Source of the DNA: Capniomyces stellatus
Taxonomy: Eukaryota; Kickxellomycota; Harpellomycetes; Harpellales; Legeriomycetaceae
Assembly (NCBI GenBank): GCA_001661515.1
Contig: LUVW01000025.1
Location: forward strand, 298,297-362,296
Direction: 5' to 3'
DNA: 64,000 bases
A program made the position numbers and the translations under genes. The notes below the pieces were generated by a model. The model was not told the DNA's origin. It did no database searches and saw only the letters and a list, made by a program, of their open reading frames with translations. This document shows, piece after piece, positions 2,156 to 63,122 of this stretch; position 1 is the stretch's first letter; each line of letters starts with the position of its first letter.

Positions 2156-5100
2156 TTAGAGCTCAGACTCAGAATCAGAATCCTGTTCAGAGTCAGTAAG
2201 AAACTCGTGGTTAACCAACGCAACATCAGCCAAGGAAGCATCACTATCATCGTTTTGGTTCTGGTGATTACTGCCCATATTATCTGGTTGCGAGCGGATA
2301 GAAAGTGGTGGCACCGCAACTTGGGTGTGGTGGGTTCTGGCAAACATTCCAGGATGGCCATCAGGACCTCGATTTCCAGACGTGTTTTGTGTAGCTGTGT
2401 TTGTCAATTCTGAATCTGAACAGTTGTCTGAATCACTGGAATTGGAGTCACTGGTATCGGAACGCGAGCTTGAACTGTAGTTGAGTCCCAAATCAACACT
2501 CATTGGCTCGTTAGCACTTGTTTTGGTAGGAAGCTCAAGTTCAGGCTCTTGCTCGGGCTCGGGCTCGGGCTCAGTTTCAAGATCAGAATGCATTGTTGCG
2601 TCAACTGGTGGGGACAGGATTGCTGAAACTGGTAAGGAAACTGGAGCAGAGATGGGAGAAGAAACTGGAGAAGAAACTGGAGAAGAAGCTGGAGAAGAAG
2701 CTGGAGAAGAAGCTGGAGAAGAAGTTGAGGAGGAACTGGCAAATAGTAACCTGGTTTTCGTGCCACCACCAATACTGGCTGGCTCAGCGGGATCGGGTTT
2801 GGCAATGGGATCGGGTTTAGAGACAATGACAACATCGACTTTGGTAGCTGTTGGTGGGTTGGGAGCTGGTTGATGATTTGCAGGCAAAGTGGGAGTGGGA
2901 GTGGGAGTGGATGTGGATGGGATTGGTTTGGGAGTTCCAGGAGTAGGATTGGTGGAGTTAGAGTTAGAGTTATAGTTGTTGTTAGAGGCAATGTTTGGGT
3001 TGTGGATGTGTAATTTGATTTGGATTGGGTTAATTTTGACTGGAGGTTTATCAACAACAATTGGGTGGTTGTGATTGGCTCCACTAGTTCCGTTAGTTCC
3101 GTTAGTTCCGTTAGTTCCGTTGGATCCCCTGGTACTACTGACACCGCTGGCTAAAGAGTCTGGAGGCGGTTGATGAGGTTGATGAGGTTCAATTGGGTTA
3201 TTGATCAAAGACGAGAGGTATCGATATCCACACCCATCACACAAGCTGTGGTACCCGTCATGGCCCATACGGATGAGTTTAGTTTCATTAGCATTCATTC
3301 CGCAGTCAATGCAGCTCCACTTACTAACGAGCTCCTCATAAGCCCTGCCAACAACGCGCGAGACCGGAGCACCAGCATCAACAATGCGCAGGTATATCCG
3401 GGTGACCATTGGAAAGCGGTCAATGTTGGGAATAGCAATCTTGTTGTGACGGATATACTCGATTTCCAACTCGCGCAACGTCCGTTCAAGATTTGAAGGT
3501 CGGCCTCTTGACCGCGGGTTCTTGACTGACGGCGTCATCCTAAGCAGCTCGTAGTCCTCCTTTGACAACTGCGACACGTCAGCCGTGTTGAACAGCGTTG
3601 CGCCGTGCTCATTGGCCACGCTTCCGTGTGCCTGGTGGTGGTGTGCAGTATGGCCGCCGGTCTTTTCGGCAGGACCCGGCGCGGCGTGCTTTTCAGCAGC
3701 GTTTGAGCGGTGGGTCGTGAGGTACGTTGAGGCCTTGGACTCGCCAAGCCCGCCACTGAACGCGGTATACTGCTCGGTGATTCCGTCAACACCCGGCAAC
3801 GCACCAGGACCTACACCAGGGCCACCCAAGTCGGCGCCAATCAGACCGGCTGTGCCAGCAGCACCGTAAAAGTACTTGTGCTTGTGTTTATGGTCGCTAA
3901 CAATACTGTAGACTAGGGCAGACATGGGTACGGCAGTGCGGTGGGTGCGCTGGGGCTCACGGTCGGGGCGGCTGACTGACCGGCGGGCAATAGCCTGGCG
4001 TCTCTTCCGTCTGGCATCGCGGTCGCTTTCCCTGGTTAGCCGGTCAACATCAGCCTCGTTGAGGTACTCGAGAAGCGGGCCGTTGTAGCCAATACGTCTG
4101 ACCAGGCTGGGTGAAATGGGCAGTAGCAGGGAGTTGACGAGGTCAGAGTCGTCAAGCACCGGTGGGTACACGTCGGGCATGTATCCAGCCATGACTATAG
4201 ACTTTGAGTAGGCAAACACTTGCTCCCTAATAGAGTGGGCAATCGCCGTGACAAACTCGCCGTTCAGTCCCTGGTCCGAACACAGCGTCAAAGCAAACCG
4301 CTCTGGACTGTTTTCTATAGGCTCAGTTGGGTCAACAACCCACTCAAACTCGTCACGCAGCGAAAGCCCGTCAATCGCCACGTCCACCCTCACCAGCGTT
4401 CGGAGGTCTGTGCTGTACTGTCTTGGAATAGAGCAAACTGCATCCAGCGACATCTTGTGCTCTGCGTACTCGGCTATTTGCTCCTCTATCGTCTTTGCCA
4501 ACGGCCCCCCAAAACTATCCACGCTCAGCCCCATGTCCGCACACATCTGCCCCGCAAAGTCTGCAGGCGTCACCAATCTCTCGTGCAGATTCCACGTAAA
4601 TGCATCTCTCAGCTTAACCCCATTCACTTCCAGGTCTACCCTAATCGGTACCAGGTGCTCCTTCTCCAAACTCTGCCTCTTCACCTCGCGCTTTCGGAAC
4701 CACAGCTTTGGCCTGCCCTCCCGCCTGCCCATCTGCACTGCCGTCTGCCTCGGCTTCCTCGACTCCTCCATCCTGATCTTTTCCAGTGCCGCCTTCTTCA
4801 TGTACATTTCGTTTGCCCACAACTGAGCTCTCATCTGCTGCCCCTTCATCTGCTTGTCCAAAACCCCCTTGTACTCTTGCTCTCTCGCCCGGTACTTTGC
4901 CACTGCATTCACTCTGTTTATATTGACTCTGTTGATTCTTGAATACTCTCTTGATTCTAAACACTCTACCTCTTCAATCACCACTCCTGTAGCTTGCTTC
5001 TTTCTAGCTGGTTCTCCTTCTTTACTTTCTTTATTTTCTTGTTCTTCTTGTTCTTCTTGTTCTTCTTGTTCTTTATTACTTTTGTTTACGCTCAATTCAA

Positions 5101-6544
5101 TTCCTCTCTTGACTCGTGCACTATTCGTATCATTATTTTCTTTTTCCTCTTCTTTTTTCTCTTCTTTTTTCTCTTCTTTTTTCTCTTCTTTTTCCTTTTC
5201 ATCATTTTCAATAGTATTACTGTCAGGATTGTTTGGCTTGAGTTGCTTTAGAAATCCCACTACTTGCACTCTACCTACATGTGTCTGCATCATCTCTTGG
5301 ATTTTGTTTTTGAATTTGTCTGGTAAACCTTCCACTATCTTTTTGGTCTCTTCCTCTTGCATCCCTGCAAGCCTACTCAATTCTTTATATTCTTCATCCA
5401 TTTTGCCTTTCAAGTCTACTTGGCCCTCTTGTACCATTGCTGATTCTTGTACCATTGCTGATTCTTGTACCATTGCTGATTCTTGTACTATTACTGATTC
5501 TTGTACCATTACTGGTTTTTGTACCATTACTGACTCCTGTACTATTACTGGCTCTTGTGCTATTGGTGGCAAAATATCTGATGGGATTGGCTGTTCAGGT
5601 GTTGCATTTGTCAAGCAAAGTGATGGCGTTGGTGTTGATGTTGGTGTTTTTGATTTAGATTTAGATTTTGGTTTTGACTTTGGTTTTGATTTTGATTTGG
5701 ATATTGGTTTAGTATTGTTATTGGTATTATTGTTATTGGTGTTGGTATTGATTGATGGACTTTGTTCTGTACTAGTACTCAACTTTTCTGCATTCAAAGG
5801 TTGTACATTTACTGATTCCAAATCCACAGAACTTTGTTTGGATACCAACTGACCACCTTCAACTCCTTGTTGAGTCACTCCAGAACCAACTCCAGATCCC
5901 GGCCCCATTCCCGGTCCCATTCCCAACCCTAACCCTAACCCTAGCCCTAATCCTAACCCTAACCCTAATGATGTAGAGTTGCTACTAGTAGTGTTATTAT
6001 TGTTATTGGCGTCGGTTGTAAAGTTTGTTGTTGATGTTGTTGTTGTTGGTATTGGTATTGGTATTGGTATTGTGTTTTCTGGTGCTTGTTCTTCATCTGG
6101 TTTGGTCAGGAACTTTCTAAGAAACATCTGCCGTTGGCTCAACTGTTGATATATACTCAGCACCTTTTGCTTATCCTCAACTCCCTGTGACTTTGCCATT
6201 TGTTCAGTCATAACCATCAATCTATCACTTGACGCGTTCATTATTGCTGATACCAATCCTGGCTGCTGCTGAACCATTTGCTGAACTATTGCTCTCTGCT
6301 GCACTAATTGCTGTTGTTGCTGAATTTGTTGTTGTTGAATTTGTTGTTGCTGAATTGGTGAATTGATTTGTTGGTTCTGTAATATATTGTTTTGGTTTTG
6401 GTTTTGGTTTTGGTTTTGTACTTGTATTTGGTTTTGGTTTTGGTTTTGGTTGGGTGACAAATTAATTCCAAATTGTTGGATTTTATTCTGTTGTTGTTGC
6501 TGTTGAACTTGTTGCTGCTGTTGCTGGATCTGTTGTTGTTGAAC

Positions 6545-6575
<31 letters not shown>

Positions 6576-8387
6576 AACTGCTGCTGCTGTTGCTGTTGCT
6601 GTTGTTGCTGCTGTTGAAGTTGAAGCTGTTGTTGTTGTTTTAACTGCATTTGTATCTGTAATTGCTGCTGCTGCTGTTGTTGTTGTTGCTGTTGCTGTTG
6701 CTGTTGAAATTGTAATAATGGATTATATTGTCCCATTTGCCCAATTTGTTGTTGCTTTTGTCGTTGTAGTTGTAGTTGTTGAAGTTGAAACATTTGCGGG
6801 TCAATTATCTGCCCTTGCTGGTTTCTTAATTGTTGCTGCAGTCCATTGTTAAAATTCTGCATAAAATTCACATTATGGCCTGTATTTTGTACCATTTGTG
6901 GCTGTAAAGGGATTGCTCCTATATTTGGGTTCATATTCATATTCATATGCATCATATTCATATTTGGGTTTGGGTTTGGGTTTGGGTTTGGGTTTGGGTT
7001 TGGGTTTGGGTTTGGGTTTGGTGTTTGTGACCCTTGACTCCCACCACTCTCCATTTGCTGCTGCTTTGCTAAAAATTCTTGATATCTCAAATCTCCAAAT
7101 CCTACTTGCTGGTTTTGCATCACTTGTGCCTGTGCCTGAGCTTGTGCTTGTGCCTGTGCTTGTGCCTGTGCTTGTGCTTGAGCTTGTGCCTGTGCTTGAG
7201 CTTGAGCTTGAGCTTGTGCTTGTGCTTGTGCTTGTGCTTGTGCTTGTGCTTGTGCTTGTGCTTGTGCTTGTGCTTGGAACTGCTGGAGCTGCAGTTGTTG
7301 TAACTGTTGCATATCCAAATTCTGCTTATTCAACCCTTGCCCCAAATCTTGATCCTTAACTACCATTCCATTACTAGTAAACGGACTCTGACTTCTGCTC
7401 TGGTTCTGACTTTGACTATGGCTTTGAGTATGAATCTGAAACTGATTTATTCCCAGGCTCTGATTCTGATTCTGGTTTTGATTCTGATTCTGGGTTTGAT
7501 TCTGATTCTGGGTTTGATTCTGATTCTGGGTTTGGTTTTGGTTTTGGTTTTGGTTTTGGTTTTGGTTCTGAATTTGCAAACTTTGCTGAATTTGTTTTGG
7601 TGTTTGTGCTTGCGAGTGAATTGCCGAGTGTGTTTGCGATTTTGATTTTGTTTGTGCCTGCGTCAATGCCAACATATCCTGTCCAACCATCGACAACGTC
7701 GCTGATCCCAAATGTCTCGTGTTTTCTAAGCTTTGTGTTGATAGCACTTGTGTTATTGGCTTTGATTCTGGCCCTATTCAACATTACCAACCATCACTAT
7801 TAATTATTACTATCCATTACTACTACCCATTACTACTATCCATTATTACTATCCATTATTACTACCCATTACTACTATCCATTATTACTATCCATTATTA
7901 CTATCCATTATTACTATCCATTATTACTATCCATTATTACTACTATTATCATTACAATTCCAAACCTACCTTTACTTCCTGCCCTTGACCCTCTAGTAGA
8001 CCTACTTCCTCTCGACCCTTTACCCCCTCGACTACCCTTTCCTCCTCGACTTCCTTTTCCTCCACGTTTACTTTCCTTATTGCCTTTTCCTCCTTCTTCC
8101 AAGTTGAAATCTTCTGACGAGCTTTTCACAAACCCAAACGCCTCTTCGCCTCCTGATTTACCCACCAACCCTGCATTATCAACTCTACTTTTATCAATCG
8201 CATATGAATTTAACCTGTTTATGTCTTCCATCGACACCCCTCCTATATTTTCTCCACTGACGTCGCCAACATCTATCCCTGTCACCATACTTGCGCTTCT
8301 GTTTCCAAGCTCGTTTGGATCTATATTCATATTTATCGCCACATTTGGGTTTATACCCATACCCATGTTCATACCCATACCCATATT

Positions 8388-17734: not shown

Positions 17735-19444
17735 ATGACAAAAGTAATGAGCAATATCCAACAAGTGGATCTGATGATGGTAGCGCCAGAAAAGCAGGAA
17801 GAAATAATTCACAATCACATGTCAATGGGTAGTAATTTACAGAAAAGACTATCAGTAAGTGTAGATAGCAGCATAGAGAAGAGTTTGAATGAAGGTATAC
17901 GCAGAAGGTACAAGGCTGAGGAGAAAGCGGCTTGCCCAACAGGAGATTCAGCAGGACTTTCGGAAAAAACAAAGGAACTGGAGATTAAATTCGAGAGAAG
18001 TAATGCTATTGAAGAGGTGCCCTGGGGAGTTTTGGTTACAACGTACCTGAGTTTTTTGATATTGATAGTGCTAGCACATATCCGGGATCGCATGGGCAAG
18101 TTTTTCTACCCAAAACAGTACGTGAGTCTCAGAGAAAACGACGGGTATGCACCGCTGATTTCAGATTTTGAGAGCTTGTGGAACAGAAGACTGTACACAA
18201 GAATATCAGATGTTTTTAATAGACCAATTACAGGGGTGGCAGGGGGCCATTTGACACTTCTGGACAGGACATCCGATGACTACAACAAGACATTCAAGCT
18301 CACAGGAACAAAGAGAACGGCACTGAATCTGGCATCATACAATTATCTGGGATTTGCACAAAGCGAGGGATACTGTGCTGACCAGGTTGAAGAGAGCATA
18401 CTCAGAGACCACGTTTCTATTGGGATACCAAGAAACCAGGGAGGGCAGACCAAGAAATTGGTTGAAACAGAGAAGCTGATGGCTAGGTACTTTGGCGTAG
18501 ATGACGCAATTATTCTGTCTATGGGGTACGCAACAAACTCGACGGTGATTCCAGCACTTACTGGGAAAGGAAGTTTGCTAATCTCAGACGAACTGAACCA
18601 CTCATCGCTGGTTTCAGGATCAAGGCTGTCGGGAGCAACAATTGGGGTATTCAAGCACGGAGATGTCAAAGATTTAGAAAAGGTTTTGCGTCGGTATATT
18701 AGTCAGGGCCAGCCAAGAACGCACAGACCGTGGAGAAACATTATTGTTATTGTTGAAGGCCTTTACTCAATGGAGGGTGAACTGTGCAATCTGCCTGCTA
18801 TAGTTGCCTTGAAAGAAAAATACAAGTTTTCTATATTCCTGGACGAGGCGCATTCCATTGGTGCTATTGGCAAGAGCGGCCGTGGCGTTTGCGAGTACTT
18901 TGGCATTGATCACAGCAAAATTGACATTTTAATGGGCACCTTTACCAAGAGTTTTGGTGCTGTTGGTGGGTATATTGCCGGGTCCAAGGATGTCATTGAG
19001 CACCTGCGTCTAAAGTGCCACTCAAACATCTACACCGAATGCATGCCATACCCTGTGCTGGCCCAGGTTGACTCTGCCATCAGACTCATGATGGACGAAG
19101 TGCCTGAATGTCCTGGCGATGGCCCAAATCGCATCAAAAAGCTAAAAGACAACTCCTCTTATTTCCTCGGCAAACTAACCGAAATGGGATTCCTGGTACT
19201 AGGCGATGAGGGTAGCCCTGTTGTTCCACTCCTGCTCTTTAACCCCGGAAAGATCCCAGCCTTCTCCAGGCTTATGCTCGAGAGAAACATAGCTGTTGTC
19301 GTTGTGTCATATCCCGCAACCCCCATCATTTCTGGCCGCGTAAGATTCTGCATCTCATCTTCTCATTCCCGGGAGGATTTGGATTATGCTCTTAAACAGA
19401 TTGACGAGGTTGGTGATTTGCTCAAGCTAAAGCTTCGAAAATAA
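17735..19444 (+). CDS. LCB2: Serine palmitoyltransferase subunit 2 (LCB2)
   Basis: A 569-residue single-exon protein. LCB2 and LCB1 condense serine with palmitoyl-CoA at the ER membrane, the first committed step of sphingolipid synthesis. Residues 1-90 are a soluble, variable N-terminus; about 92-112 form one membrane segment (VLVTTYLSFLILIVLA). The rest is the alpha-oxoamine synthase fold: ASYNYLGFA, SDELNHSSLVSGSRLSGA, IVEGLYSMEG and FLDEAHSIGAIG. The PLP-binding lysine in GTFTKSFGAVGGY is Lys405 from this start. The PRNQGGQTKKLVETEKLMAR segment resembles the yeast form more than the animal one. A second ATG four codons downstream is an alternative start. The neighbours are unrelated in function. 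Confidence 0.93.
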   Translation: MTKVMSNIQQVDLMMVAPEKQEEIIHNHMSMGSNLQKRLSVSVDSSIEKSLNEGIRRRYKAEEKAACPTGDSAGLSEKTKELEIKFERSNAIEEVPWGVLVTTYLSFLILIVLAHIRDRMGKFFYPKQYVSLRENDGYAPLISDFESLWNRRLYTRISDVFNRPITGVAGGHLTLLDRTSDDYNKTFKLTGTKRTALNLASYNYLGFAQSEGYCADQVEESILRDHVSIGIPRNQGGQTKKLVETEKLMARYFGVDDAIILSMGYATNSTVIPALTGKGSLLISDELNHSSLVSGSRLSGATIGVFKHGDVKDLEKVLRRYISQGQPRTHRPWRNIIVIVEGLYSMEGELCNLPAIVALKEKYKFSIFLDEAHSIGAIGKSGRGVCEYFGIDHSKIDILMGTFTKSFGAVGGYIAGSKDVIEHLRLKCHSNIYTECMPYPVLAQVDSAIRLMMDEVPECPGDGPNRIKKLKDNSSYFLGKLTEMGFLVLGDEGSPVVPLLLFNPGKIPAFSRLMLERNIAVVVVSYPATPIISGRVRFCISSSHSREDLDYALKQIDEVGDLLKLKLRK

Positions 19445-42183: not shown

Positions 42184-44034
42184 CTAGAATTTCAAGTTGG
42201 TGTCCATCCCATCGTTAAGTGCGCTCACAAACATCTCATCCCTTTGTTTGAGCGTTTTATCCTATTTTCCATGATTTTTTACATTTCAGATTAGTCCATT
42301 TTCATTGATAACTTGGCTTTGGTCCTTCCCTTTGGTTTTACAACACTCAAAAAGTAATGCCTTGAACTTTAAGTATAGCATAAATCTTATATTTACATGG
42401 ATTTGAATGGTTTCTTGAAGTTTGATCCGAGCCAGCTGAATGTCCTATATATGCAAAGTAACACATAACACATAAAACATATTTATCGGTTGGTCAGTAG
42501 AGTTGATTGCAAAAGGAACCCGGCTTGCCAACTCAAAAAATGAAAACTTCCACATATAATCTTGTCTTATTTATAAGGTTTGATTATATTTTTAAAGGCA
42601 TTTACTGGCGGAAGATTGGAAAATGACTCTAGTCTCGATTCTTTAAGCTTGACATCGTTTCTAAGTGCGTTTAGACTTTTGATACTGAGCTTGATCTTGT
42701 CAAGATCAGGCATATCAATGATTTTGGTCTGTGACAAACTCGACTATGGGTACACATATAATTGATGTTTAGGCACATACAACCAACTCCCAGTTACACA
42801 AATTCGAAATTATATGTACAGCTGTGCGCAAGAATAATAATACTAACCGACTCGATACGTTTTTTGTATTCAGCTATCTTGGTGTTTAACATTTCGACGC
42901 CACGATCCCACTCGTAGGTCTTTAAATCGTGTTTTTCTTTGTTACACTTGATTTCATCTATCAAGCTAGATCCCAGATTAGGTGTAAATGTTGTTTTATA
43001 TATTATTATTGAAATGTCAATTTATATTTATATTTTATTTAAATATGGCTGTTACTAGCTAAAATTTCTTTGCAAACTCAAACTGCGGCAAACTTAACCA
43101 ATGATCACAACCACATTCTTACCATTGAACAGCTTGAGCTCTATCTCTAGACTCTGATATTTTGCGTTCAAGCTGCAATATTTTCCTGTCAAGCTTGGTT
43201 TTTTTCAAGGAGTTGTGATATATTTTGGCGACATCTTTACTTTGAGCAGCTTGGATACTAATGCCCATAAGTCACCAGATATTTTGACGTTGTGCAGGTA
43301 CCAAAAGCTTGTAAAGTCAAAGGACTAACCAAGACAACAGTCGGTTATGCGTTATACAATATAAACGCAGATAAAATATAAATAACCATATACCTAGGAA
43401 CAGATATTCTTGAAAGACCGAGCGCTATAGCCAAGTCTCCAAGTTTAAACAGGGTTTCTGAAAATCCAAGCTCATGGAGCTCCGAGTAGCTTCCCAACAG
43501 CTTCAAATAATGTGTGTCTATATCAACTGGTGTTTTTGCAGCCAATACAAAAGTTAACATGGGGTTTATACTCGGCACAGCAGAGTGTTACTTTGAACAA
43601 AACAACAATGAATAGAACAAAAAAAAATAAAGCTGGATAACAGGAAAATGCAGCATAATAAAGAGAAAATACAGTAGAATAAGCCGAGAATAAGAATGTA
43701 TTTACCTTGCTCATTCAATTCAGTGTTCTCTAAAACCGATACCTTCCTACTTGATTCGTCTAGCTCAGTACATCCTAGAACAGCGTTTTGTACAAACTTT
43801 AACAGTTTGAAAGTTTCTATAGTTTTCTTGAATTTGGGTAATTGGCCATTGTGGTAGTTTCGTGCTAACCAAGACTCTAACTTTAAATTTTATATCCAAA
43901 ATGTTATAGCAAATATATATACGATGGCTTATTTGATACTAAAGCATAAGTACTTATTTTAAACTGTTCCATACGTCTATCCAGTCTTTTTCAGTGATGC
44001 TGCCTTCGGGATTCGAATTTGTATTTGACAGCAT
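42184..44034 (-). CDS. HAUS1: Probable HAUS augmin-like complex subunit 1, eight exons
   Basis: Exons, 5' to 3': 44034-43975, 43880-43706, 43526-43394, 43257-43123, 42965-42848, 42743-42606, 42444-42397, 42261-42184. Every intron is GT-AG, all phases match, and the product is 294 residues (human HAUS1 is 278). The N-terminus has LESWLARNYHNGQLPKF, like the HAUS1 opening of Trp-Leu followed by IPQY. The middle is coiled coil (KIYHNSLKKTKLDRKILQLE). The C-terminus LESFSNLPPDIQLARIKLQE parallels the HAUS1 ending LESYLDLMPNPSLAQVKIEE. Augmin recruits gamma-tubulin to existing microtubules to build spindle branches. Assignment rests on this C-terminal match plus overall length and coiled-coil layout. 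The first exon join is the least certain. Confidence 0.68.
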
Positions 44035-44562: not shown

Positions 44563-46628
44563 TCAGTAGTAGCCGGGATGATATCTTGCTAGTTTGTGTA
44601 TCTGTACAGCAGCACAAGTAGTTAGCTTATGCGACAGTAGGGACACAACTGTTTTGGAGCCACTAAGCCCTAGCTTTTTCAAGGCGTTTGTGTCTGTAAT
44701 TGTTTGGGAAAAAGGACTTGTGGTTAGAAGTCTGTAGCAAACCATTTTTGCAGTTTCAGAGCCAAAGATCATATCTGCGTTGTAAACAGGACACATGTAG
44801 TCAGAAGAGAATTTGGTTTTAAAGTTAAGAGCGAGTGTGGGATCTGATTCTGGTTTTGGTGGAGGATACGGTTTTTTGAGAGCCAGTTTGAAGGGAAATG
44901 ACGATAGTTCGCTGTAAATAGTTTGAACCAAGTCGTTTTCGAGGGCATCAAAGCGCAGAAAAGTAGACTCTAGCTCAGCCACGTCAAACTGGCCGGCTTT
45001 TAGAATAAAGTCTGGCGTTAGGACACCAAAGTCCAAAATAAACTGAAATCTGTCTGGTTTAATTTCAAGCTTTTTGGTATCAATGTAGTATTCCCAAGAG
45101 GAGATTTGAGAGCCACGCGGAGGCAGACGCTCCAGCTTTGGTGATGGCAGGTCCAAGCTAGTGTTAGGGGAACTTTCCAACTTTACGTCAAAGATGTCCG
45201 GATTTTGGAGCTTTCTGGCTCTTAGAGGCAGTTCGGCAAGCTCGGTTAGAAATCTGATTTTCATTGTCTTTTCTACGTATTCAACCAAATCAGTTCTAAT
45301 CTTGCCAAAAGTATGCTCAACTTTAGATTTTCCTATAGCGTTAAATAAATAGGTTGAGGTTCACTATATATATTTTAAAAAGCACAGGAGCGCGCCCATT
45401 GACGCGTATTGTATATAAAGCAATGTGTTTAGAATTAAAAAAAATGTATATGCACTAGTATCCATAGGATAGCTTAGTGCTGTGGAGTTAGTCTGATTAG
45501 GCAAGTTATTACCTTCAGAGATAAAATTTGCTAAAACAAATGCTTTGGCTGATATGTATACTGATTTGCCGCCGTATCGAGAGTTCTGCCTAGACTCGTC
45601 AACAACAAAAATGTTTGAGCTGTTGTTTTTGGAAACGAATTCAGGTAAATTGCACGAGCTCTTTCTTACCCTAAGCAGCAGATCTACAGCAGCGATTTAT
45701 AACATTTCGATTAATAAATTTTACTTGACCCAGACATAAAAAGCAGCACTGTACATCTTTGGGATAACGTTAAACTGCACAAAGCAATATAGAGCAATCC
45801 AAAAACGCACATTTATCGATATATAATGTTAACAGCAATATTATGTTTAGAAATTAAAACAGAAAAGTACCTCTAGGGAAATTCAGATTCGTATAAGTGC
45901 ATTTTCTCAACCCAGAAGTTAGGAGCTTGACTACAGGTTTAGTTTGAAAAACAAACAAATAAGTACGACAGCTACATAATTAAAGTGGTGTTATGGTGTA
46001 GAAAACGTAGAACAAGTTGATTTATTTTACCATACGAGTTTGCTTCGATTTTTTCGCGGAAATCAAGCAGTTCAGGCTCCCTTTGGATAACTTTTATAAA
46101 TCTGTTGTATTGTCTGCGTAAATTCCTTTGATTTCGCTCAAGCTTAACTTCGATTTTGTTCTTAGGAAAGACGCCTTCGTTGTTTTTGTTTGGTGGTGTT
46201 GGTGGATACTTGAAAGGATTGATGGGATCTAGTGGAGTTTCGAAACTAATTGTCTCAAGCTGTTCAGGTAAAGTGTATTCGATTTTAAAACGTTTGAATT
46301 TCACTTGACCATCTATAAGCTTTTTAATTCGGTCGATATTCTGTTGAACCCTTTCACAATCAACCTTTATTTCCATTTGAGGTTTATCTTTTAGACATAA
46401 GGAACCTGGATCTGTTTCTGCTTTTGATTGTGTCTTTGCTTTCGAGTCTGAATCCGACTTTGTTATCGATTTCGATTCTGTTTTTGATTTCATTTGGTCA
46501 TTGGAATCCTTGTTCAAGGCTGAAGTGCAGACATTTGATTTCGAAAATTTCGAGAAAGTAGCTCTCAGCAAAAGTTGTTTGTAAAAGAGCGGTTTAATGG
46601 TTTGACCAGCCTTTTCTAAAGAAATCAT
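44563..46628 (-). CDS. Unrecognised protein, probably mitochondrial, four exons
   Basis: Exons, 5' to 3': 46628-46031, 45930-45871, 45683-45513, 45332-44563. Introns of 100, 187 and 180 nt are GT-AG and in phase, giving 532 residues. I do not recognise the family. The first 40 residues (MISLEKAGQTIKPLFYKQLL, then an RATFSKFSKS segment) are basic and lack acidic clusters, resembling a mitochondrial presequence. A Lys/Ser/Asp-rich linker (about 45-75) follows, then a helical region with DFREKIEANSY, KLLTSGLRKCTYTNLNFPRD, IFVVDESRQNSRYGGKSVYI and SAKAFVLANFISEGKSK. The C-terminal half has no obvious motif. The conserved-looking core argues for a real gene, since the junctions restore one continuous, well-composed protein. 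The upstream neighbour is a bHLH factor and gives no functional hint. Confidence 0.7.
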
Positions 46629-60476: not shown

Positions 60477-63122
60477 TCAGCAAGATGAGACCTTGGCACA
60501 CGAAAATGTAATTTTACGTAGAATTGCTGATCCAGACAAAGGGGAGAAGGCCAGATTTTTGGCCTTGTAGCTACCCTTGTTACGTGTGGTTTTAAGAACG
60601 TTATCAATATAAATCTTGAACTGGGCTGGCGTGGACTCGATCTTAATGCTGTTTCTTGTAGCGCGTTTAAAGACTTCGGATCGCTTGGAGAGAGTATGTC
60701 TCCCATTCCTAATTAAACTATTGCCAGATGAAACACCGAATTGGGCTTCATAAACACCATCTATGCTGTAGTATCCTTTTTCAGACACCAGTGCTACAAA
60801 CAAATCTGAATTCGAAGTGACTTCAGCGGTAAATACAAATTCTTGGTCATCACAAGGAATTTGGAGTGCTTGATTAAAGTCGTAGGTCTTTCCTTTTTTT
60901 CCCGCTTTAATCAAAATATTTCGCACACCTGAGGTCAATGGACACGCTGTAGTGGTCGTTGACGTCGTTGTTGACAAAGTGCTGATTGCTGGAGTGATTG
61001 CGGTGGTATTAGTAGTATTAGTAGTATTAGTGGCAGTGGTAGTATTGGTGGTAGTGGAAGTAGTGGAAGTAGTGGCAGTAGTATTGGTGGTATTGGTGGT
61101 ATTGGTGGTATTGGTGGTATTGGTGGTATTGGTGGTATTGGTGGTATTGGTGGTATTGGTGGTATTGGAAGTAGTGGAAGTAGTGGCAGTAATAGCAGTA
61201 GTAGCAGTAATAGCAGTAGTAGCAGTAGTGGAAGTTGTGGAAGTTGTGGAAGTTTGTGTTTTTGTGGTGGTTACATTTCCTTGTGTTTCGCATTTTTTGT
61301 TGTCAATGTGCTTATTTACAATATTTTCAATCTTAGCTCCATTTTTTTCGGCACCAAAAAACAGGTAAACTGTTTCTGAAGAAAATAGCTTTGCGTCAAA
61401 TTCGCTTGGCATAACATATGTAACATCATCACCGTCGTAACCGATATAGACTCCAGTCGAGTCGGATTTAATAAAGGCAGTAGCGCTTGAAGTTTGGCCT
61501 GTAGAAGTGTCCTTGATTTTTTCGTACTCTTCTGATCCAATGTACCATTCCCCATTGTTCACACCAATAGTACCTTCAAGCAATGGTGATCCCTTCGTGT
61601 CTTTTTCGTTGCTTAGAGCAAAGTATATGTCGGATGTTTGGTCTACATAAAACGAAACAAAGAATGTCGAATATTTGGCCTTTACAGCGATGGAATTGTT
61701 GGATTCGTATACTCCTTCAGACAGGTTACCCAATCCCAACTTGATGTTGATTGATGTGAACTTTTGCTCACAAACAAATTCCATTCCGTCAACAGTATCT
61801 ACCGAGCCTTTGTTTATGGTAGTGCTTGGAGCAGTACCTCTTGCTTCTCTACTTGTATGAGATACTGGGGTAGTTGCACTAGCACTTACACTTGTAATTT
61901 TAGTTGTTTTTGTACCTTTAGTTGTGGTTATACTAGCACTGGTGGTTGAATTAATGGTTGTGACACCAACAACAGATGGTATACTGGGTTTTGCAGTTGT
62001 TTCAGTGGCTATAGAAATTGCTGCAACGGCTGCAAATGTTGTTTCGATTGTTGTGTTAGATGCAGCCAATGTGCCAATTTGGCTAGTTGCAAGTTTCTTC
62101 TTTTTAGGTGCAACTGGTGCAGCACAGTTTTCCATGTCAATATTAGCGTTGCAGCTTAGCCCGGTGCATTTAACATGCCTGGAGATAAACTCGTTCCAAT
62201 ATCCGCCCAAGTTCATGTGAACAGAAACAGTGGTGCCTATGTCACATGAGCTTTTTTTTCCTTTTACAATAGAACTCTCAATTCCTTTAAGCATGCTGTA
62301 GTTTATATCCAAAAGCTGTCCTCCGCTACCTCCATAACACGAATTGCTGTTTTCAGATTGAGATACACAGATAACTTTTCCGCTCTTGAAGTCCAATGGA
62401 TGGAACATCTCACAATAGTCATCGTCACCTCTAGTAACAATTGATTGTTCAAGAGCAGTTGATGATGTACCGTCAACAGATGTCAAACCATAACCTGCCA
62501 CTCTATATGTAGTGTTTGGGTTAGTAACCGATTTCTCCACATCTATTGGCAATGCAACGTCAAATGGAACACACGGGCTTATAGTTAACAGGGCCAGGTC
62601 ATCCTATTAAATGATTGAGCAACAGTGCAAACAATCAGTATAGTTAGTATTGTGATCTTATTAGTTCAAATTCAAATAGCCGAATCAAATTTTAGTGTTA
62701 CTTACAGAGTATGGCTTGGTGTGTACGTATTTTGGATGAACAACTGCATTTGTGACATTGTATACATACTTATTCACTTTGGAAGGATTTTTCCCACTGA
62801 ACCCAATCTTGATACTGGCCCAGTTGGCTTTTTTGGTGGTTCCAGTTTCATGGAGGCAGTGTGCGGCTGTGATAATAACTGATGGTGAAATCAATGATCC
62901 AGTGCATCTATATTTATCATTGCCCTCAACTTCAAAGTATGCTACCGACTTGAAGTTGTTTAGTCTAATATCTACACCGCCGATCTTGTTTGGTGTAAAA
63001 CTTTTGATTTGGTCCCTTGTAAATATTTTGTGATCAAAGGTATTTTGTTCCAAAGCGAGACCATAAATGATTTGAGTCCCTAAAAGGGCCAGAATAAAAC
63101 ACTTACTAGTATAGCCAATCAT
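60477..63122 (-). CDS. Secreted trypsin-like serine protease with Thr/Asn linker and C-terminal beta-rich modules, two exons
   Basis: Exons 63122-62706 and 62603-60477 (102-nt GT-AG intron, phase 0) give 847 residues. Residues 1-24 are a signal peptide. Activation after Lys46 would expose IGGVDI. The catalytic triad is His88 in ITAAHC, Asp141 in DDLALL and Ser232 in CYGGSGGQ. The residue before Ser232 is Gly rather than the Asp194 of chymotrypsin-type proteases, and the position equivalent to Asp189 is Asn226. After the protease come a Thr/Ser-rich linker, a module of about 165 residues (FVCEQKFTSINIKLG...), a Thr/Asn repeat linker encoded by a 9-bp array, and a second related module ending in Cys. 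The modules resemble extracellular carbohydrate- or ligand-binding beta sandwiches such as FAMeT-type domains; this is tentative. Likely secreted and heavily O-glycosylated. Confidence 0.85.
61083..61169. repeat. 9-bp array encoding Thr-Asn-Thr linker of the protease
   Basis: Nearly identical GGTGGTATT units on the plus strand give ThrThrAsn or AsnThrThr triplets on the coding strand. Flanking sequence is a looser form of the same repeat. Confidence 0.85.

Follow-up and report, generated by a model that had tools for sequence, protein, structure and literature searches.

A probable gene for the augmin subunit HAUS1, divided into eight short exons, in a Harpellales fungus

Introduction

Augmin is a multi-subunit complex that branches microtubules in animals and plants and has been described structurally in both. 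According to the available part of PMC10323247, human augmin is made of two tetramers, one of HAUS1/3/4/5 and the other of HAUS2/6/7/8. The plant structure, as presented in the accessible text of PMC12748588, has AUG1 and AUG4 in the extended region, where they bind AUG3 and AUG5 at their central section; plant NEDD1 binds at the AUG2/6/7/8 junction. The HAUS1 proteins of animal augmin (PDB 7sqk, 8fck, 8at2) are 278-286 residues long.

In fungi, augmin is already known from A. nidulans and its relatives. The available portion of PMC4086812 describes in this filamentous ascomycete the subunits AUGA-D, Aug6 and AN0286, including relatives of Aug1, 2, 4 and 6, and reports Aug3 as well. Another augmin subunit in an early-diverging fungus is HAUS5 of Rhizophagus irregularis, which was published as plant-derived on the grounds that no other fungus had yielded it (PMC5982333, in the part available). 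In the accessible text of PMC12748588, augmin and NEDD1 are stated as not conserved across fungi. No earlier report of augmin in Kickxellomycotina was found in the literature surveyed, mostly at the level of titles and abstracts.

The locus described here belongs to Capniomyces stellatus, an insect-gut fungus of the order Harpellales and thus of Kickxellomycotina, unlike the ascomycete A. nidulans. The window, i.e., the whole stretch of DNA analysed, is 64,000 nucleotides long. As judged from its sequence, one gene on its minus strand very probably encodes HAUS1, a small coiled-coil subunit of augmin.

Gene Structure

The gene runs from 44034 to 42184 on the minus strand and consists of eight exons, which together give 885 nt encoding 294 amino acids and a stop codon. 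All seven introns are of the GT-AG type, and splicing in silico yields consistent phases. Joining the exons in this way bears out the sequence-only reading, which had proposed eight GT-AG exons of matching phase and a protein of 294 residues. The exons are listed below, with ranks counted among 104 GT sites for donors and 109 AG sites for acceptors; finder recovery refers to eight settings of a gene finder.

Exon 1, 43975..44034, minus strand: start codon at 44034; ends in phase 0; donor GTATGG, rank 9/104; exact in 7/8 finder settings.
Exon 2, 43706..43880, minus strand: N-terminal LESWL segment; donor GTAAAT, rank 1/104; weak acceptor, rank 69/109; donor recovered in 8/8 settings, acceptor in 1/8.
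Exon 3, 43394..43526, minus strand: donor GTATAT, rank 10; acceptor rank 8; exact in 4/8 settings.
Exon 4, 43123..43257, minus strand: donor GTAAGA, rank 2; weak acceptor, rank 78; donor recovered in 8/8 settings, acceptor in 0/8.
Exon 5, 42848..42965, minus strand: HAUS1 match of 14 bits by itself, the sole one among five exons tested singly; acceptor recovered in 2/8 settings, donor only in seeded finder runs.
Exon 6, 42606..42743, minus strand: contains LESFSNLPP; weak acceptor, rank 64; donor rank 31; donor recovered in 7/8 settings, acceptor in 0/8.
Exon 7, 42397..42444, minus strand: DIQLARIKLQE, extending the motif common to this protein and HAUS1 of 7sqk; donor recovered in 6/8 settings; exact only in seeded finder runs.
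Exon 8, 42184..42261, minus strand: C-terminus and stop codon; acceptor rank 2/109; exact in 8/8 settings.

The longest exon measures 175 nt, in agreement with the earlier statement that none exceeds about this length. It had also been predicted that simple calling of open reading frames would miss the gene. This is indeed the case, as a six-frame search of the genome with the HAUS1 family at E<=0.001 reported nothing, not even the present gene (the other subunits were run at E<=10).

The gene finder was trained on 261,950 bases from elsewhere in the same genome, with the HAUS1 stretch held out. The intron lengths of the gene (94, 179, 136, 157, 104, 161 and 135 nt) lie within the range of the 51 introns kept by this finder (median 119, 5-95% 41-257). 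The GC content is 39.4% in exons versus 30.7% in introns, and the coding log-odds of the model frame is +15.0 versus -138.4 and -104.0 in the other frames. An in-frame stop codon is located seven codons upstream of the first ATG.

Identity of the Protein

The joined protein matches the Pfam family HAUS1 (PF25762) with 53.5 bits and an E value of 3.7e-14, at profile positions 3-236 of 236. The family cut-off is 40 bits, so that by the curated Pfam threshold, applied over the profile, the protein belongs to HAUS1. The similarity thus extends over nearly the full length of the family, and the protein (294 residues) is close in size to its animal counterparts.

This score is a property of the assembled protein. 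Exons 2, 3, 4, 5 and 6 were each below the HAUS1 cut-off when taken alone, and among six pieces (exons 2-6 singly and exons 6-8 joined) all but exon 5 lacked any HAUS1 match. When the exon order was permuted, 20.0 bits were left, so that most of the score depends on the exons being collinear. Two alternative joins proposed by the gene finder gave no match and 19.0 bits, respectively, versus 53.5 bits for the eight-exon model.

The C-terminus had been claimed to parallel human HAUS1, and this parallel could be located. The 20-residue C-terminal motif of human HAUS1 occurs exactly at residues 238-257 of HAUS1 in PDB 7sqk, a protein which we take to be human. Nine of the 20 residues are common to the fungal protein, in the pattern LES...L.P...LA..K..E at the junction of exons 6 and 7, the motif itself not being a curated criterion. 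Beyond these likenesses, the fungal sequence differs from animal HAUS1 in that the similarity is remote. A single-sequence search of solved structures in the PDB returned only noise and missed HAUS1. No HAUS1 relative at E<=1 was present among 1091 candidates drawn from 5.8 billion proteins, in a database that includes Harpellales proteins.

Coiled coils give spurious matches, and one could argue that an unrelated coiled-coil protein mimics HAUS1 through its helical composition. The noise returned by the PDB search, the 20.0 bits remaining after permutation, and the weak matches of the joined protein to DUF496 and TPR_MLP1_2 (E 0.02 and 7.4) fit such a view. However, proteins of identical composition, whether reversed or shuffled, produce no HAUS1 match, while the real protein exceeds the curated cut-off along nearly the whole profile, and partner subunits of augmin are present in the same genome. 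A chance resemblance of this kind is hardly credible.

Support for the Splice Borders

The splice-site models were learnt without the HAUS1 gene, and the generic seeds were dropped after the first round. Under these models, donors 1-7 rank 9, 1, 10, 2, 20, 31 and 3 among 104 GT sites (p 6e-6), and both the donor sites and the coding frame of the gene are well supported. For exons 2-8, the acceptor ranks are 69, 8, 78, 10, 64, 27 and 2 among 109 AG sites, which is not significant (p 0.06). In its best settings, the finder gives exons 1, 3 and 8 exactly; of the seven donors it recovers six, but of the seven acceptors only two. The whole eight-exon model was reproduced in none of the eight finder settings, and with lax penalties the finder strings spurious exons together.

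In seeded finder runs, exons 1, 7 and 8 were recovered and the acceptor p value was 0.003, figures that are not independent because the seeds were typed by hand and some of them resembled the gene's own sites. Using generic seeds that were dropped after the first round moved the acceptor p value from 0.003 to 0.06 and altered the set of exact exons; donor support was unchanged.

The exon borders may be off because several acceptors are poorly supported. A misplacement by some codons of at least one of the fourteen borders, most likely an acceptor, is a serious possibility, though less likely than not, and it is compatible with HAUS1 identity. The finder places the acceptor elsewhere for exons 2, 4, 6 and 7, and in most settings for exon 5, and ranks of 69, 78 and 64 among 109 point in the same direction. 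Against this stand the two finder joins that were tested, with no match and 19.0 bits, in a comparison that covered those two joins.

Augmin Partner Genes

Of the eight augmin subunits, six (HAUS1-6) were sought by their families, exon by exon, in the 24.5 Mb assembly (59 contigs).

The clearest partner is HAUS6. One untouched exon on contig C22 scored 36.2 bits in the genome search, and a four-exon model (C22:279822-281793) matches PF14661 (HAUS6_N) with 59.2 bits at a cut-off of 26.4, a value that is partly fitted, as the final phase-consistent acceptor (L003:4167) was picked after the chytrid alignment. A first model, at 25.9 bits, fell just below the cut-off, and a variant of 49.6 bits was discarded as not phase-consistent. 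Among 7998 scored candidates, those sharing most words, a single protein matched HAUS6 at E<=10. It comes from the chytrid Spizellomyces and itself carries HAUS6_N (116.6 bits); an alignment of the two proteins spans 267 columns with 28% identity (E 2e-20). A PDB single-sequence search with HAUS6 gave only noise.

HAUS4 appeared in the genome search as a weak exon match (E 0.285). Four joined exons (C19:245526-246859), with one donor taken from the gene finder, match PF14735 with 33.9 bits at a cut-off of 25, in a model that lacks the 5-prime end. For HAUS2, an exon match of 19.9 bits (E 0.006) led to a five-exon candidate (C18:288835-290045) with 23.8 bits for PF15003, below the cut-off of 27 (E 4.2e-5). 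Both the HAUS2 and the HAUS4 models were assembled with the target family in mind. A second HAUS2-like locus was nearly as good in the genome search (18.0 versus 19.9 bits, E 0.023); situated on contig C13 inside an open frame of 827 amino acids, it was set aside by its appearance as a long coiled-coil protein. The candidate HAUS2 gene shares its contig with HAUS1, from which it is about 50 kb away; it lies outside the window, about 8 kb ahead of the first base.

Based on these models, the same genome encodes HAUS6 and HAUS4, and probably HAUS2 as well. Together with the near full-length Pfam match of 53.5 bits, they corroborate the earlier assignment of the gene to HAUS1. No candidates for HAUS3 or HAUS5 emerged at E<=10, the exon-by-exon method being weak for short exons; this does not amount to absence because a similar search, at E<=0.001, also missed HAUS1.

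Alternatively, augmin might be on its way to being lost from this genome, with the gene as a decaying HAUS1 remnant. The failure to find HAUS3 and HAUS5 at E<=10, the lack of a HAUS1 relative in the protein search and the weak splice acceptors in part of the gene would agree with decay, and neither aug3 nor aug6 is needed for growth of A. nidulans, according to the accessible text of PMC4086812. Yet all eight exons are open and in phase with GT-AG at every border, the coding bias is kept in the model frame, and the HAUS4 and HAUS6 models are likewise open. Decay is accordingly regarded as quite improbable, and an intact HAUS1 gene is preferred.

Possible Role in Augmin

By analogy with the known complexes, the protein most likely serves the complex structurally as HAUS1 does in described augmin. 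From the published structures, as far as their available text goes, HAUS1 would sit in the extended arm of the complex, paired with HAUS4 and with the middle portions of HAUS3 and HAUS5. HAUS2/6/7/8 would form a V-shaped head on this arm and touch microtubules. Augmin containing this HAUS1 would help to add microtubules in an auxiliary capacity and not as an essential route, in line with the portions of the literature available.

The sequence-only reading had gone further and proposed augmin branching as the way in which spindle microtubules are nucleated in this fungus. Such branching goes beyond what the sequence shows. In Aspergillus, deletion of augmin produced no mitotic phenotype in the available account (PMC4086812).

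The Gamma-Tubulin Complex

The family of the C-terminal domain of gamma-tubulin complex proteins (GCP) matches two loci in the genome at E<=0.01, and the N-terminal family matches the same two and no others at E<=10. They are the sole gamma-tubulin complex protein loci detected:

GCP3 locus, C21:142457-144949: best PDB match E 1.3e-32.
GCP2 locus, C34:788486-790900: best PDB match E 1.3e-54.

GCP4-6 were not found, and the N-terminal families of GCP5 and GCP6 had no match in the genome, in searches run without a positive control. The genome also has MOZART1, with 31.6 bits at a cut-off of 27. CM1 matches nine places at E<=1, one of them above the cut-off (37.2 bits, cut-off 28.5), and this family also gives sub-cut-off matches in 3 of 14 prokaryote controls.

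Only GCP2 and GCP3 were thus detected, unlike in A. nidulans, which has the ring subunits GCP4-6 (PMC4086812, available portion). If GCP4-6 are truly absent, augmin would work here with a yeast-like gamma-tubulin small complex. One tentative scenario, which appears rather unlikely, is that augmin was kept while GCP4, GCP5 and GCP6 were lost, and that augmin either recruits small complexes of GCP2/3, MOZART1 and CM1 directly or has a role other than gamma-tubulin-ring branching. Organisms with only GCP2/3, namely budding yeast and C. elegans (PMC5881034; PMC4086812) and Dictyostelium (PMC8534566), are without augmin in the available text of these sources. Should GCP4-6 be truly missing, this fungus would break the pattern, as far as those sources describe it, that organisms with only GCP2/3 also lack augmin. 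The role of augmin in fungi could be tested directly in a lineage that combines augmin with a reduced gamma-tubulin complex.

Implications for Augmin in Fungi

Augmin subunits in a Kickxellomycotina genome bear on two published claims, the non-conservation of augmin across fungi (PMC12748588) and the plant origin of Rhizophagus HAUS5 (PMC5982333), each as worded in the accessible part of its source. The subunits found here, together with HAUS6 in a chytrid, suggest that augmin is ancestral in fungi. Vertical descent of Rhizophagus HAUS5 may be worth testing because other augmin subunits occur here and HAUS6 occurs in a chytrid. Additionally, the results suggest that short exons and fast divergence hide augmin from ordinary annotation.

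Host and Neighbouring Genes

The LCB2 gene of the window (17735-19444, plus strand) points to a Harpellales fungus or a near relative as the source. Among the matches listed, numbering at least 120, the highest identities are to Zancudomyces culisetae (77%), Furculomyces boomerangus (74%) and Smittium (63-72%), followed by Kickxellales, and the top match by score among them is a longer plant entry with 51% identity. The GC content of the window is 37.8%; Harpellales genomes are given as 25-102 Mb with a GC content of 26-37% in the available part of PMC5954228.

A plus-strand open frame of 202 amino acids with a match to RmlD_sub_bind adjoins the 3-prime end of HAUS1, and therefore the two genes converge. 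The minus strand also carries, immediately upstream of HAUS1, an open frame of 265 residues (44563-45360) with no Pfam match at E<=0.001. Farther away, an open frame of 1873 residues (2156-7777, minus strand) contains an SNF5/SMARCB1 domain (156.8 bits) along with very long glutamine and QA repeats. Near the other end of the window, a frame of 708 residues (60477-62603, minus strand) has long Thr/Asn-rich repeats and no Pfam match at E<=0.001; a GGSGGQL stretch within it may recall a trypsin-like active site.
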